DNA from: a bacterium
GTDB taxonomy: Bacteria > UBP15 > UBA6099
Length of the DNA stretch: 29,461 nt
Reading direction: 5' to 3'
Assembly (NCBI GenBank): GCA_029564595.1
Contig: JAKQPS010000112.1
Coordinates: 1-29,461, forward strand
A model generated the notes under the pieces. That model was not told the DNA's origin, made no database searches, and saw only the letters and a program-made list of their open reading frames with translations. The position numbers and the translations under genes were made by a program. This document shows, piece after piece, positions 19,888 through 26,948 of this stretch; within the stretch, counting starts at the first letter, position 1; the number at the start of each line of letters is the position of its first letter.

Positions 19888-21423
19888 ATGCAAACCCCGG
19901 ACGGCGGCAATCCGGCAAAAAAAAGAATTAACCTATCCGACAAAGCGAGATGGGGGTTGATTTTTTTTGAGTTCCTCGCGGCATACGCTGTCTTTTATAT
20001 TTCATTCTCCGGGGAATGGAAAAGCCACATCTATTTGAGATTCTTAATGATAGTTCCCTTGTATCATGCGGGCGCGACTTTCGGCTACACGGGAAGCATA
20101 ATCAGCAGCTTGTTGAATATTTTTATGTTCGTTCCGATTATCCCCATAGCGGCCCGCTCTCAGACATACGATTTCGACCCGTCATCGGCGATTATAATTC
20201 TCTTCTTCTATATCTTCTTCGGCATATTCGTCGGCGGAACGGTGGGCAAAACGCGAAAAACAAGCAGGTACGTCGACACATTGTCGCAGGTTTTTATGAG
20301 GATTCTGGCCGAGCCGGACGAAGCGTCGATAATCCGGCGCTCATGCGAGGAAGCCGCAATCCTGACCGACGCTGCGGGCGGATCCGCCCTTGTTTGCCGC
20401 GACGCAGAAATCACTCCCGGCAAATGCTCTCTGTTCTCCGTGTTCTCCCAAGACCCTCCCGGCGAGGAAACCGTAGAGCCGACACCCGACAATATTCTGC
20501 TCTGGTGCGCGCGCGCCAACGCCCCGATATCCACCAACAGCGCCGGACACGACAAACGCCTGTCAGTCGGCCCCCGCGCCGCCCACGTCAAATCCGCTCT
20601 GGTCGTCCCCGTTTCATTCGAAAGTTCCGTCTACGGCTCTTTCCTCCTTATGGACAAGAAAAACAACGAGAACTTTTCCGACAAAGACATGTCCATCGCG
20701 AAAGCGATCGCTGAGACCGCCGGAAGCGCCATTCACAACATCTTTCAGGAAAAAGAAAGCCAGCAGGAAAAGCTGCGCGAGGAGCAGATGCGGGAGCTTT
20801 TTTCCCGCTTCGTATCTTCTTCCGTAGCCGATTACGTGCTCGAACGGCCCGGCTTGCTTAAGGGACGCTGGGAGGAAGTGACCGTGCTGGTTTCCGACAT
20901 CAGGGACTTCACGGCCATCTCTGAAAAAGTCTCGCCCAAGGATCTTGTCAGCCAGCTCAATGAATACTTCACCGCGATGGTGGACGTCATTTTCGACAAC
21001 AAAGGAACGATAGACAAATTCATCGGGGACTGCATAATCGCGTACTGGGGAGCGCCGGCCCCCGACCCGGAACACGCCGCCCGCGCCGTCAAGGCTGCCG
21101 CCGAGATGTCCCGCGCGCTCGATTCCCTCAACTCCGACTGGGCGCGACGCTCCATGATCCCTCTCTCCTCCGGCATCGCCATCCACACCTGCAAGGCGCT
21201 TATCGGCAACCTCGGAGACGAGCGCAAGAAAACTTTCACCATCATGGGCGAGGAAGTCGAAAAGGCGGTAAAAATGGAGTCTCTGTCCCGGACTCTGAAC
21301 AAAAAAACCATAATCTCCGAAAGCGCGGCCGGAGCGTCTAACCTATCATCCGCACTGACGGAAATCCCTGATTCGCCGCCTGAATTCGGCAGACTTTTCA
21401 GTCTCTCGCTGGAGCGGACATGA
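19888..21423 (+). CDS. Membrane-bound class III nucleotide cyclase, N-R pair missing
   Basis: From the ATG at 19888 (weak ribosome site; a TTG 16 codons upstream is the alternative) the protein has 511 residues. The N-terminus has four to five membrane helices (about 22-118). A GAF-like domain (about 130-285), a short helical linker and a class III cyclase domain (about 325-480) follow. Both metal aspartates are present: D337 in VSDIRDFT and D381 in IGDCIIAYWGAP. K377 and T451 fit adenine selection of class IIIb. The block that should read GxxVNxxxR reads GEEVEKAVK, so the transition-state Asn and Arg are replaced by E458 and K462. A homodimer should be poorly active. The paired cyclase at 23240 retains N and R. 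It is the first gene of the operon, and its stop overlaps the next start (ATGA). Confidence 0.88.
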   Translation: MQTPDGGNPAKKRINLSDKARWGLIFFEFLAAYAVFYISFSGEWKSHIYLRFLMIVPLYHAGATFGYTGSIISSLLNIFMFVPIIPIAARSQTYDFDPSSAIIILFFYIFFGIFVGGTVGKTRKTSRYVDTLSQVFMRILAEPDEASIIRRSCEEAAILTDAAGGSALVCRDAEITPGKCSLFSVFSQDPPGEETVEPTPDNILLWCARANAPISTNSAGHDKRLSVGPRAAHVKSALVVPVSFESSVYGSFLLMDKKNNENFSDKDMSIAKAIAETAGSAIHNIFQEKESQQEKLREEQMRELFSRFVSSSVADYVLERPGLLKGRWEEVTVLVSDIRDFTAISEKVSPKDLVSQLNEYFTAMVDVIFDNKGTIDKFIGDCIIAYWGAPAPDPEHAARAVKAAAEMSRALDSLNSDWARRSMIPLSSGIAIHTCKALIGNLGDERKKTFTIMGEEVEKAVKMESLSRTLNKKTIISESAAGASNLSSALTEIPDSPPEFGRLFSLSLERT

Positions 21424-22271
21424 GCGCGCCATTCGCAACCGGAGCCGGTTATTATCCCGGCTTCCAGAAATTCAAGATAACCGCCGACCCGGCTTTCCGC
21501 AGATGCCTGCTGGCTTTCATCCCCCTAATGGCCATGCTGATTCCGGGGGTGAGCATAATCCCGCCGGGAATGCGCAGGGAAATCTTCTTCATCTCCGTCT
21601 TTCTCGTTTACATGTTTCCCGCCGCCATAGTCATCGCGGGAGGGCTGCCTGTTTCGGGCTGGCTATGGTACTCCTCCTCCGCCGCCCTGTTCGCCGCAGC
21701 CACTATCCCTATCCCTCTCGGTTTTTCCTACAATTTTCTGTTTTTGATAATTCCGTCCTTGTTCTGCCTCTCGAAAGTCAACAGGGCAAACCCGCTTGTG
21801 TTCCAAGCTCTCGGATACACCACGCCGGCCAAACCGGGAGCGGAAATAGTTTTCACCGCTCTTGCGGCGTCAGTCCTGATTTCATACGTCTGGATCGGTC
21901 AGGCGTTCATAAGAAAAATGGGCGTCGACGTACTACCGTTGAATAAATATATCTGGTTTGCCGCCACCAGCGCCCTCTATTACGGCGTCCTTTGGGGAAT
22001 CCTCTACGGCGTCCTGATGCGCAGGTTCATGGAGTTCCGCTACAACATCATTCTGCCTATCGCCCTCAACATATTTATCTTGTTTGTTTACTGGATCCCT
22101 TCAATACTCAGTTATGACATGAAACTTGAAATAGCCATCGGCGGCTCCATCATGCAGAGCTTCTCCTGCCAAGTCGCTCTTGGAATGACATATTTCTACT
22201 GCCGCACGACCAGACCCCTGCTGGCGGCTTTCGTCATTCACTATTTATTCATCAAGACAGTCAGCATCTAG
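21420..22271 (+). CDS. Multispanning membrane protein of unknown family
   Basis: The 283-residue product has about eight hydrophobic helices and almost no soluble domain. Near the C-terminus FYCRTTRPLLAAFVIHYLF faintly resembles the last helices of CPBP (Abi-type) intramembrane proteases, but the EExxxR motif is absent, so an active protease is unlikely. I do not recognise the family. The ATG overlaps the stop of the first cyclase (ATGA), indicating coupled translation and a role linked to cyclase signalling. Confidence 0.7.
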   Translation: MSAPFATGAGYYPGFQKFKITADPAFRRCLLAFIPLMAMLIPGVSIIPPGMRREIFFISVFLVYMFPAAIVIAGGLPVSGWLWYSSSAALFAAATIPIPLGFSYNFLFLIIPSLFCLSKVNRANPLVFQALGYTTPAKPGAEIVFTALAASVLISYVWIGQAFIRKMGVDVLPLNKYIWFAATSALYYGVLWGILYGVLMRRFMEFRYNIILPIALNIFILFVYWIPSILSYDMKLEIAIGGSIMQSFSCQVALGMTYFYCRTTRPLLAAFVIHYLFIKTVSI

Positions 22272-22295
22272 GCGGAGGAGCCGGACCGGAAACAA

Positions 22296-23243
22296 ATGAA
22301 GAACGACTCGCAACATGACAACGGAGCGAACCGCGAGCGACGCAAACAGGAAGCGGTTCACGCTTCCTCTTACGGCGTGGCCGTCGCCGCAGATATAAGC
22401 GCGGCTATGGATTCTCTCCGAGAGCAATCCCGTCCCGGCGCGTTCGCCAATTCTATCATTATCAAAGCGTCCATCATTCTGGCCTTCGGCAGCCTCGTGT
22501 CAGGCGTTCTTTCCATCTTTTGGGAAAAGGGCGCTATAACCGTCGAGACGAAGGACATACTGGTGGGCGCGCTGTACATTCTGGGGTTCGGCGGCGCTCT
22601 CCTGTTTTCGGGAGGCCTGACTGCAAAACGAGCGCTTATGCTCGCCGCCGCGACTGTTTTGTTCCAGACATGGAATACTATTTTCTACAGCAACCCCCCG
22701 GTTGCGGCTTTCGTTCTTGCTCTGGGATTGTGGCTGCCCGCTTATTGGACCGTCTCCGACCCTGCCGCGATGGAAAAGCTGGGGTTAGTCCGCAAAGGGC
22801 TTGTCGTCAACTCTATCGCCGGACTGGCAATAGCCGCCGCCCTAGCTCTATACATGGCTTGGGGAATGAAAAACTTCGGGTTTGATTTTAAAATCGAGCC
22901 GTGGCGGCTAATAGTCAACACCGCTCAGGTGTTCCCGATGTATCTTGCGGTGTTCTGCCTTTTCTTTGCCGTCTGGAACAAACTGAAATCATGGGGCGCG
23001 TCGCCTTCCGACATGCTTATAGCTCTCGCCTTTATGTCCGTTTTTCTAAGCGCCCCTTCGTTCGCGGGCGTGGCGATAGCTACAAAGACTCCGCTCGGAA
23101 CCACCGTCGCCGGGCTTGCCGCCAGCGTCGTCATTATGATTCTTTCGTCTTACATTACTTTTTCGAAATTCAGGAGCGCCGTCCCGGCGGCATGCCTTTT
23201 CTCCGCTCTCGCCGCGCTCCTTTTAATCACGGGCCTGACATGA
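22296..23243 (+). CDS. Multispanning membrane protein of unknown family with soluble N-terminus
   Basis: The 315-residue protein begins with about 45 hydrophilic residues (NRERRKQEAVHASSYGVA) and continues with eight or nine hydrophobic helices. A short hydrophilic loop with SDPAAMEKLGLVRKG lies near the middle. No family motif was recognised. A GGAGGAG site lies rather far (about 14 bases) from the ATG at 22296. The stop overlaps the start of the second cyclase (ATGA). Its fixed position between two cyclases suggests it belongs to the same membrane complex or signal input. Confidence 0.7.
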   Translation: MKNDSQHDNGANRERRKQEAVHASSYGVAVAADISAAMDSLREQSRPGAFANSIIIKASIILAFGSLVSGVLSIFWEKGAITVETKDILVGALYILGFGGALLFSGGLTAKRALMLAAATVLFQTWNTIFYSNPPVAAFVLALGLWLPAYWTVSDPAAMEKLGLVRKGLVVNSIAGLAIAAALALYMAWGMKNFGFDFKIEPWRLIVNTAQVFPMYLAVFCLFFAVWNKLKSWGASPSDMLIALAFMSVFLSAPSFAGVAIATKTPLGTTVAGLAASVVIMILSSYITFSKFRSAVPAACLFSALAALLLITGLT

Positions 23244-24709
23244 AGAAGACCGCAACCTTAGCAGCCCTGAGCGTCGCAATCATCGCCATTGTGGCGGTCG
23301 CCCATTACTTCGACCGGGAGCACTGGGGCTTGGGCTGGGTTCGCATGCTTCTGGCCGTCCCAATCGTTTATGCCGGACTCAACTTCCGCCGCTCCGGCGC
23401 CATCGCGCTCTCGCTTGTCATCTGCGTTCTGCAAGGCCCGCTCGTTATCATAAAATATTCAAAATACGGAAACTTCAGCCCGGACCACGTGACGGCAGTT
23501 ATTTTCATCGCTATCTTTTCCGTCATGTTCGCCCACATACTCCGCAAGGAGCGGGAAAACAACGACTCGCTCGAATACATTCACGAACTGATACGCGCGA
23601 CGCGCGGTAGCATTGACGAAAACAAGCTGTTTGTCACTCTTGAAAACGCGTTCGCGGACAGATGCCAGACGAATGAAACCGCCATACATGTCTTCGGGCC
23701 GGACGGAGCGCTCAGACCATGGAGAGACCCCGGAGCGGCCCCTCTGCCCGCGGGGCATCTTTTCTACAAGGTCGCCGAAACGCGACATTTCATCGTCAGC
23801 GCCAGCCCCGCGCACGACTCCCGCATGGTGTGGACCGGGCATGAAGGCGGCCTCGCCTCAATCTCCCATCTTGCCGCTTTCCCTCTAGGATACGCCGGAA
23901 CCGTGAAAGGCGTAATCTCCGTCCTCAACTCTCCCCCGGAGCGCTTCGACAAAGAGACCATAACATTCTTGGAAGCCGTCAAACAGACCGTCGAAAACAC
24001 TCTCCTGCTAGGCGAAAAGCTCCGCTCCCGCGTCCACCACGAAATGCGAAAAATAAAAATCCGCGACACCTTCACTTCCTACCTTTCTCGCTCAGTCGCC
24101 GAGGAAATTCTTAAAACCCCGGACAAAATCGACCCCGGCGGCGAACTCCGCAACGTCTCCATCATGTTCACCGAAGTGACCAATTTCAGCCTCCTTATGA
24201 AAACCTCGCCCCCGGAACAACTCCTTTCCGACCTCAATGAATTCTTCTCGGCCGCGATAGACACCGTGTTCGAGCACGACGGCGCTCTGGACAAGTTCAT
24301 CGGCGACAATGTCATGGCGTTCTGGGGCGCGCCCCTCGCCGACCCCGACAGCGAGATGAAAGCCGTCTCCTGTGCTGTCAAACTGCAACAGAAACTCGTC
24401 CTTCTGAACGAGAAATGGCAGAGCGAAGGCCGCTCCCCCTTCAACGTCTGCATCGGCATAAACTCCGGCCCCGCCGTCGCAGGCAACATCGGCAGCGTCC
24501 GCCGCATGGAATACACCGTCATCGGCGACAACGTGAACCTCGCCGCGCGCATCAAATCCCTTTCCAGCAAAGACAACATCCCCATCCTCGTCAGCGCCTC
24601 CACCTTCGCAAAAACCAAAGACGCCTTCAGCTATTCCGACCCGCTCGAAGCCGCCGTCAAAGGAAAATCCTCCTCCATCACCGTCTTCCGCCTTTTGATA
24701 GACGACTGA
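23240..24709 (+). CDS. Membrane-bound class III nucleotide cyclase, first metal Asp replaced by Glu
   Basis: Started at the ATG overlapping the previous stop, the protein has 489 residues. Three short membrane helices (about 5-22, 33-72, 84-100) precede a degenerate GAF-like region (about 105-260) and a cyclase domain (about 300-450). K352 and D356 (DKFIGDNVMAFWGAP), T426 and the full GDNVNLAAR block (N433, R437) are intact. The first metal site, normally F-S-D-I/V, reads IMFTEVTNFS, so the Asp is replaced by E312. This is complementary to the upstream cyclase, which keeps both metal Asps but lacks N and R. Because class III active sites form at dimer interfaces, a C1/C2-like heterodimer is a reasonable inference. 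Glu may still bind metal, so partial homodimer activity cannot be excluded. Confidence 0.9.
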   Translation: MKKTATLAALSVAIIAIVAVAHYFDREHWGLGWVRMLLAVPIVYAGLNFRRSGAIALSLVICVLQGPLVIIKYSKYGNFSPDHVTAVIFIAIFSVMFAHILRKERENNDSLEYIHELIRATRGSIDENKLFVTLENAFADRCQTNETAIHVFGPDGALRPWRDPGAAPLPAGHLFYKVAETRHFIVSASPAHDSRMVWTGHEGGLASISHLAAFPLGYAGTVKGVISVLNSPPERFDKETITFLEAVKQTVENTLLLGEKLRSRVHHEMRKIKIRDTFTSYLSRSVAEEILKTPDKIDPGGELRNVSIMFTEVTNFSLLMKTSPPEQLLSDLNEFFSAAIDTVFEHDGALDKFIGDNVMAFWGAPLADPDSEMKAVSCAVKLQQKLVLLNEKWQSEGRSPFNVCIGINSGPAVAGNIGSVRRMEYTVIGDNVNLAARIKSLSSKDNIPILVSASTFAKTKDAFSYSDPLEAAVKGKSSSITVFRLLIDD

Positions 24710-24722
24710 AAACATATTAACA

Positions 24723-26948
24723 ATGGCTGAAAACGCTCAACACAATCATATTGCGGAACACGCCGACGGCTGCGCAAAGACGGGCCGTTTCGTTTTGATG
24801 TCGCTGTTCGCATTGTGCCCGTTCGCGGCGCTGCCTGCCGCATATAATCCGTACGGCGTAAAGACAGCGTTCTTCATGACGGGCATCGCCGTGTTATTTG
24901 CGACTGTCTCCATGTTCCGAGGCGGAGCGCCCGCAGCGGGCGCTTTGCGCGCCCCTGTCGGAGCTTCAATTGTTTTTATGACTTTAGTCGCGGCCGCCTC
25001 TTTCGCAGTGGCGGCAAACCGTTATCTGGCCCTAAAGGACATCATGCTGTTTATCGGTTTTTCTTTGATGTTCATATCAACGGCCGCAATCATCCGCGAT
25101 TCAAGGCAGATTAAAACGCTGATGTCCGTTTCGGTGGTCGCCGCCGTTCTCATGTCTATAATAGCTCTCCTTCAATACATAAGGATTCTTCCTTACTTGT
25201 ACGTTGACTGGGGCGTGAGGGTGGCCGGAATGTTCGACGACCCGAACATTCTGGGCGGATATATCCTGTGGAACTTCGTTTTCGCGGTCGTCCTCATGAT
25301 ATTGGAGGAAAGAAGTCGGGCAAAGCTGTTCTGGAGCGCAAGCTGCCTTATGCTTCTTATATGCCTGCTGATAAGCTACAGCCGCAGCGCTTGGCTTGCG
25401 GGCATCGCAGCTTTCGCCGCTCTGCTCGTCTGCTTGTTGATTATCGACAGAAAACGTTTTCGCGCGCTCATCAAGCTTGCCGTCGCGATTGCTCTGGTGG
25501 GAGCGCTTTTTGCCGCTTACACATACAAATATTCTCCGCGCGGCTCGAACATCGTTCACAGGGCGCAAAGCTCCTTGTCATTCGCGTCCGGCGAAGGCAA
25601 ACCGCGCTTGGTCATGTGGCGCGGCGGCGCGGAAATGGCTTTGGACAACCCGCTCTTGGGCGTCGGAGCCGGCAACCTTAAAATCTTTCTCCCTCTTTAC
25701 ACTAAAGACTCGCTCGCCAGAAACAGCGATTTGGATTTTATTTATGTTTCGCACATTTATAACGATTACATTCAGATGGCCGCGCAGTCAGGATTCATCG
25801 GTCTTGCCGCCCTGCTCTTTTTCGTGTTTTCTTTCTTCCGCGTTTCGGCAAAAAACATCCGCGCTCGCAGCGAGCTTTGCGTCGAAGACAAAATCATTGC
25901 CGCCGCCCTTTGCTCCGCCGCCGCCGGAATCCTTTTCAGGGGCATGGCTTTTCAGTCCGTAATATACAGTCCTTTGGAGTGGTTTCCGCTCGCGGCGTTC
26001 GCCGGTTGCGTGTCGGTACTGAGGTCAAGCGGCGCTTCCGTGTCGCGCAACCATAATGCAAACCCTTCAGCGGCGTCCAGATACGGGCTTCCGCTCGCCG
26101 CGCTGATATTCCTATGCGCGTGCCTGATGATATATGTTCCCCAAACATTCGCCGATGTCTCGTTTCGAAAAAGCGTGGAAGCCTCGAACAATCTCGATTT
26201 CGACGAAGCCGAACTCCATGCCCGGCGCGCCATCGAAGCCTCTCCTTATGACGAAGAGCTAATTTTTCATTATGCGGCGTCGCTGAATGACGCAGGCAAA
26301 TCGGACGACGCTCTTTGGACTTTTTTCAAGGCCCGCGACATACAGCCCAATTACGCCCCGGTATATTTCAGAATCGGGAGCATACAGTTCAAGAAAGGCA
26401 GGCATGTCGAAGCGCTGGAGCAGTTCCGACGCTCGCTGTGGCTCGCTCCCAACCACGCGCCCTCAAAGGCTATGGCTGCCAGATGCTTTTTGCTGTTGGG
26501 CGATTATAAGGCCGCCGCCGCAGGATACTCCGCCCTTGCGGAACAATTCCCGGACTCCTTCGAATACCGTCTTTACCTCGGAATATCCTATCGCAGACTG
26601 TTGCGGCTTGAAGACGCCCGCAGGCAGCTTCTCGAAGCGCGCCACTTAGACCCGAAATCCCAGCTTGCCGCTTTCAACTTAGCCGCCGTCCTTTCTATGC
26701 AGGACAAACATGACAACGCCGTGACGATTCTTGATGAATTGCTGTCAACCAATCCCTCGCATTCCGAAGCTTTGCTGCTGATGTCCTATGTGAGTTTCAA
26801 GCTTAATAAATTTGACTCGGCGGAGAAATATCTTAGACAATATCTGGCCGTCAAAGGAACCGCCATCGAAACTATCCTCGCAGAATTGGGACAAGATTCC
26901 CTGAACGAAGCAAATTACTTATCCATATACGATAAAGCCGCCAGATAA
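24723..26948 (+). CDS. O-antigen ligase (WaaL/Wzy_C-type) with C-terminal TPR domain
   Basis: The 741-residue protein has about twelve membrane helices up to residue 460. It carries the Wzy_C signature: RVAGMFDDPNILGGYILW (166-183, R166), SRSAWLAG (220-227) and GVGAGNLKIFLPLY with SHIYNDYIQMAAQSGFIGL (312-361, H344). About six TPR units follow (485-735). Members join or polymerise lipid-linked glycans at the periplasmic face of the inner membrane. The TPR tail is found in some bacterial ligases and in PglL-like oligosaccharyltransferases, so protein O-glycosylation is also possible. It starts 13 bp after the second cyclase with no strong ribosome site, so it is probably the last gene of the cyclase operon. 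Confidence 0.85.
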   Translation: MAENAQHNHIAEHADGCAKTGRFVLMSLFALCPFAALPAAYNPYGVKTAFFMTGIAVLFATVSMFRGGAPAAGALRAPVGASIVFMTLVAAASFAVAANRYLALKDIMLFIGFSLMFISTAAIIRDSRQIKTLMSVSVVAAVLMSIIALLQYIRILPYLYVDWGVRVAGMFDDPNILGGYILWNFVFAVVLMILEERSRAKLFWSASCLMLLICLLISYSRSAWLAGIAAFAALLVCLLIIDRKRFRALIKLAVAIALVGALFAAYTYKYSPRGSNIVHRAQSSLSFASGEGKPRLVMWRGGAEMALDNPLLGVGAGNLKIFLPLYTKDSLARNSDLDFIYVSHIYNDYIQMAAQSGFIGLAALLFFVFSFFRVSAKNIRARSELCVEDKIIAAALCSAAAGILFRGMAFQSVIYSPLEWFPLAAFAGCVSVLRSSGASVSRNHNANPSAASRYGLPLAALIFLCACLMIYVPQTFADVSFRKSVEASNNLDFDEAELHARRAIEASPYDEELIFHYAASLNDAGKSDDALWTFFKARDIQPNYAPVYFRIGSIQFKKGRHVEALEQFRRSLWLAPNHAPSKAMAARCFLLLGDYKAAAAGYSALAEQFPDSFEYRLYLGISYRRLLRLEDARRQLLEARHLDPKSQLAAFNLAAVLSMQDKHDNAVTILDELLSTNPSHSEALLLMSYVSFKLNKFDSAEKYLRQYLAVKGTAIETILAELGQDSLNEANYLSIYDKAAR

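Follow-up and report, generated by a model that had tools for sequence, protein, structure and literature searches.

Two neighbouring bacterial class III cyclase genes with complementary half-sites, probably encoding a heterodimeric membrane adenylyl cyclase

The window analysed here, a 29,461-nucleotide stretch of bacterial DNA, contains two class III cyclase genes, cyc1 and cyc2, whose products very probably form an obligate or strongly preferred heterodimeric membrane adenylyl cyclase with one live and one dead site. In a class III site the two metal Asps come from one chain, and the base-binding residues, the Asn, the Arg and the Lys come from the other; phosphate is bound by the stretch that holds the Thr located five residues past the first Asp. 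Among eukaryotes, heterodimeric class III cyclases are textbook enzymes. The two-gene bacterial split is a variant of this known logic, and in the literature we searched, mostly papers available without subscription, bacterial class III cyclases are described as identical pairs and we found no natural bacterial heterodimer encoded by two genes.

Both genes lie on the forward strand. cyc1 (19888..21423) encodes 511 aa with a 4-TM domain, a GAF domain and a class III cyclase domain, and cyc2 (23240..24709) encodes 489 aa with a 4-TM domain, a weak GAF domain and a class III cyclase domain. Both belong to class III, as Pfam Guanylate_cyc (PF00211) matches cyc1 with 61.3 bits (E 1.2e-16) and cyc2 with 86.7 bits (E 2e-24) against a curated cut-off of 21.9. 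The first-pass annotation of this DNA had given each cyclase its own membrane and GAF-like sensor. This holds, since a 4-TM domain and Pfam GAF_2 are found in both, the cyc2 match being slightly below the cut-off (27.8 against 28.6 bits). Homology also links the N-terminal membrane domains of the two proteins (hhalign E 4.6e-13).

The catalytic residues named by the same annotation are exact by translation. cyc1 has the first and second metal Asps, D337 (GAC, 20896..20898) and D381 (GAC, 21028..21030), with E458 and K462 at the transition-state Asn and Arg positions (21259..21273). In cyc2 the first metal Asp position is occupied by E312 (GAA, 24173..24175), and the transition-state residues N433 and R437 (24536..24550) are present. 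The other site residues are T342, K377, T451 and E455 in cyc1, and S317, K352, D356, T426, D430 and K476 in cyc2. The metal half-site of cyc1 is therefore intact (D337, D381, T342) and its transition-state half-site is lost (E455, E458, K462, no GK). The transition-state half-site of cyc2 is intact (K352, T426, D430, N433, R437, K476) and its metal half-site is degraded (E312, S317). Three losses had gone unmentioned before: in cyc1, those of the C-terminal GK and of the Asp conserved in the GD-x-VN motif, and in cyc2 that of the conserved Thr five residues past the first metal position. Unlike a homodimeric bacterial class III cyclase, neither protein has all catalytic residues in one chain. 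The residue roles used here are taken partly from PMC3591389.

The complementary pattern exceeds chance because unpaired domains almost all keep all four residues, that is the two metal Asps, the Asn and the Arg. As controls we used the 44 members of the tree set found outside any complementary pair, with the odd first domain of locus L214 set aside. All four residues are kept in 42 of these, the remaining two have a change of the Arg only, and the first metal Asp is invariant. A scan of the best 80 loci of our collection by closeness to cyc1 gave 80 of 82 domains with all four residues, using the patterns [IV]DK[FY][IV]GDC and LNEYFTx[MI]V, which themselves partly require the second metal Asp. 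The two exceptions are L065, which is a cyc1 of the same family as the one in the window, and L069, in which the Arg is replaced by Tyr.

The split is also conserved among relatives. We found nine complete pairs of the cyc1/cyc2 type, which we call type A, in five genomes: three in the window's own genome (G000, with 12 cyclase domains), one each in G001 and G002, and two each in G003 and G004. A survey of homologous operons had been set beforehand as the refuting test for the heterodimer, and none of the nine complete pairs is canonical; all show the same complementary split with an intact composite site. Of the cyc1-type domains, 11/11 retain both metal Asps and the Thr, 11/11 have Asp or Glu at the Asn position, 1/11 has the Asp of GD and none has the GK. 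The Arg is retained in 4 of the 11, where the losses are those of the Asn, the GK and mostly the GD Asp. In the cyc2-type domains the first metal Asp has become Glu and the Thr is lost in 10/10, and the Lys, Thr, Asp, Asn, Arg and GK of the other half are kept in 10/10. Since the losses are block-wise, with one half-site lost per gene, the composite site of cyc1 metal and cyc2 transition-state residues is complete and the mirror site is broken in each complete pair. Single subunits are found near contig ends at L048 and L051 (cyc1 with memA, a membrane protein gene described below) and at L229 (memB with cyc2). A partial pair exists in G006, a genome of the same order but a different family, with a cut first gene in which Asn has become Asp and Arg has become Ala, and a second gene in which the first Asp has become Glu. 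G005, which is 95% complete, has neither the cyclase pair nor memA. Type A was seen in one small phylum only, and the genomes of this phylum are drafts.

The first-pass annotation had predicted an obligate or preferred heterodimer. The nine pairs split alike and the further pair types described below support a heterodimer, but "obligate" is unproven, because Glu is a conservative substitute for the first metal Asp. A metal ion could still be held by E312, and the proposal that it abolishes the homodimer site of cyc2 is the weakest step of our reading. For this reason we considered whether cyc2 might be a slow but functional homodimer, with cyc1 as an inactive regulator tuning it through heterodimers. 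The conservative nature of the exchange and the second metal Asp, kept in 9 of 10 cyc2-type domains, would fit this. We nevertheless regard it as unlikely, given that no unpaired domain of the set has lost the first metal Asp, that the neighbouring Thr is lost together with it in every cyc2, and that the remaining cyc2, that of L009, has Glu at both metal positions. The Asp, Asp and Thr kept throughout the cyc1-type proteins would moreover be needless in a mere regulator. The loss of the Thr and the two Glu residues of L009 argue for a dead cyc2 homodimer site.

Compared with two congeners, dN/dS is 0.07-0.11 for cyc1 and 0.06-0.11 for cyc2, so both genes are under purifying selection, and these values contradict a decay to pseudogenes. 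The pairwise distances of cyc1 and cyc2 are correlated (r 0.81, computed on six pairs with near-copies left out), and only 1 of 720 permutations is as high, this one being the observed order itself. The pairs co-diverge and the genes are co-inherited. One might still suppose that these are ordinary duplicated cyclases with one or both copies drifting to pseudogenes, and three type A pairs in one genome are what duplication would give. Drift of this kind is extremely unlikely in view of the open frames, the congruent distances and the identical split in all relatives. We infer the formation of a heterodimer, and the loss of homodimer activity, from the residue split together with its conservation, the co-inheritance and the purifying selection.

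Complementary pairs are not restricted to the cyc1/cyc2 type. Among the matches listed, at least four further types of adjacent-gene pairs (B, C, D and E) show the same complementarity. Type B consists of adjacent CHASE2-cyclase genes and is found in 7/7 genomes of the phylum, at L011:3764-9972 in the window's genome (contig C139) and at L061, L062, L063, L064, L230 and L231. One of its proteins carries Met/Leu and Ala/His/Ser in place of the metal Asps and retains the Asn and Arg; the other retains both Asps, with Asp/Glu and His at the Asn and Arg positions. In a search for its metal-less relatives in 386 genomes, the matches beyond the phylum whose DNA was read are canonical, so that type B is not seen outside the phylum at that similarity. 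Types C, D and E come from other bacterial lineages (loci L216, L217, L218, L219, L220, L221, L222 and L223). In type C (G035, G317, G182, G074) one protein has Ser/Ala/Trp and His with the Asn and Arg kept, next to a neighbour with both Asps and with Thr/Ala and Glu. One gene of type D (G036, G183, G318) has both Asps, with Lys changed to Met, Asn changed to Asp and the Arg lost; its neighbour has Glu (a gap in one case) and Asn/Glu, and keeps the Lys, Asp, Asn and Arg. Type E (G023) has Ser and Glu with the Asn and Arg kept, and a neighbour with both Asps and with Ile and Glu.

This breadth bears on another explanation, namely that both domains are pseudo-enzymes that signal by protein contacts and make no cyclic nucleotide. 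Each chain's own site is indeed incomplete. A dead pair would however be expected to lose both sites, whereas here no pair lacks a complete composite site, and five unrelated pair types each retain the two halves in the appropriate partner, which makes this explanation very unlikely compared with a catalytic heterodimer. Complementary pairs are common among the neighbours that we examined, though not universal, in a non-random sample of loci picked where matches clustered closely. Three pairs on the same strand, adjacent or close together (L068, L089 and L224), are canonical. The adjacent pair at L214:3293-7838 has a first cyclase that is degenerate in most of its site residues (Val, Thr, Asp/His) and a second that departs from the canonical set only by a Glu where the adenine-binding Lys belongs; judged by these residues, the second may be a guanylyl cyclase and the first its pseudo-cyclase partner.

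We built the trees without the four trait columns. Type A cyc1 and cyc2 form separate clades (support 100/100 and 100/99), and types B, C and E are placed elsewhere among canonical domains, the relative placement of B and C resting on branches with 89-93% bootstrap. Type D falls outside in the quick tree and was left out of the careful tree for its long branches. Of the two trees, only the quick one groups cyc2 with the phylum's own canonical single cyclases (94). Well-supported branches force at least four separate changes for the metal-less state and at least five for the Asn/Arg-less state, in a count that is blind to gain versus loss and in which the single L054 accounts for one of the five. 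These trees support an origin of complementary pairs on about five separate occasions. A wider proposal would be that two-gene heterodimers of the C1/C2 or soluble guanylyl cyclase (sGC) kind have arisen in bacteria about five times from cyclases that were duplicated or lay side by side, and that the version in the window sits in a membrane complex with paired non-catalytic proteins of a protease fold, so that two distinct inputs would be needed for one cAMP site. We see the case for and against this combined proposal as evenly balanced.

Among known systems, animal sGC is the closest in logic. It is likewise made from two genes, with the metal Asps from one subunit and the Asn, Arg and Lys from the other; in the human enzyme these are alpha D486 and D530, and beta N548, R552 and K593, and the mixed alpha/beta dimer alone is active (PMC3591389). 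The isolated sGC catalytic interface permits homodimers too (PMC3591389), which counts against inferring a heterodimer here. cyc1 and cyc2 fall outside sGC because they have no H-NOX, the Pfam scan giving GAF and Guanylate_cyc only, and because their base-binding residues are of the adenine type: the subunit with the Asn and Arg has K352 and T426 instead of the guanine-specific Glu/Cys. They also differ from sGC, with its H-NOX/PAS sensors, in their 4-TM and GAF domains and in sharing a bacterial operon with genes for two membrane proteins. The membrane adenylyl cyclases of mammals similarly have one productive and one degenerate site, with the metal half in C1 and the nucleotide and transition-state half in C2. 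There the two halves are in one polypeptide with two 6-TM bundles, whereas here they are in two bacterial genes with 4 TM each, separated by memA and memB. The duplication and fusion of C1/C2 has been dated to early eukaryotes (PMC9552081). The closest solved relatives of cyc1 and cyc2 by sequence are bacterial adenylate cyclases. Homodimers such as CyaC and Rv1625c share the catalytic fold and the family PF00211, but each of their chains has every catalytic residue, giving two equal sites, and a review from 2022 describes the bacterial class III adenylyl cyclases as homodimerizing (PMC9552081). The chytrid rhodopsin-guanylyl cyclases (RGC/NeoR) are obligate heterodimers from separate genes (PMC8815786). 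Unlike the half-sites of cyc1 and cyc2, RGC1 and RGC2 keep all catalytic residues and the need for a partner lies elsewhere.

The operon order is cyc1, memA, memB, cyc2, head to tail on the forward strand; the first-pass annotation had not mentioned the two middle genes. memA (21420..22271) and memB (22296..23243) encode polytopic membrane proteins of 283 and 315 aa, which are paralogues (hhalign E 1.9e-9). ATGA overlaps join the cyc1 stop to the memA start and the memB stop to the cyc2 start, and so are found at both junctions between a cyclase and a mem gene. The gene order is kept in relatives with the exception of L009, which has a single memB-like gene between its two cyclases. A memA profile search of 193 genomes found 11 places in 6 genomes, all 11 directly after a cyc1 and none away from it. 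Pfam gave no convincing match for either protein. Structure models (mean pLDDT 83.8 for memA and 79.5 for memB) both have 4cad, the Rce1 CAAX protease, as their best VIA match, with Z 13.5 (rmsd 3.8 over 206 residues, next row 7.0) for memA and Z 11.1 (rmsd 4.0 over 208 residues, next row 5.7) for memB, values that for helical bundles can reflect merely a common helix arrangement. Foldseek gave no match for these models at E 0.001. No His is conserved in at least 8 of 10 rows of the memA or memB alignment; a CPBP/Rce1 protease would have conserved catalytic His residues. memA and memB are probably non-catalytic partners of the cyclase complex. Past the operon, 13 bases after cyc2, comes a gene (24723-26948) that encodes an O-antigen ligase-like (Wzy_C) TPR protein and also adjoins cyc2 in the two close congeners L045 and L046.

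In the mechanism that we propose, the catalytic domains of cyc1 and cyc2 would pair head to tail. From cyc1 the live site would take D337, D381 and the conserved Thr; cyc2 would contribute K352 and T426 to contact the adenine, the transition-state residues N433 and R437, and K476 to contact the phosphates. The mirror site would be dead and could be a regulatory pocket, and homodimers of either protein would be inactive or nearly so. Each subunit would have a separate 4-TM and GAF input, both feeding the one live site, probably with memA and memB as partners. The predicted product is cAMP, because Lys and Thr occupy the base-binding positions. If this is true, conserved two-gene heterodimers exist in bacteria and the split active site has evolved there repeatedly. 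Such pairs would be simple, separable systems for probing the role of the dead mirror site, and would also suit studies of the way in which a single catalytic site integrates two sensors.

The window's genome has ten matches to cNMP-binding domains, which are possible readers of cAMP. Two cNMP-binding genes in this genome, at C88:19980-21420 and C97:41880-45344, lie about 0.6 and 3 kb from other cyclase genes. Finally, L225, L227 and L228 each encode one protein of about 1140-1300 aa whose chain holds two cyclase domains, partly degenerate, a layout that resembles soluble adenylyl cyclase.
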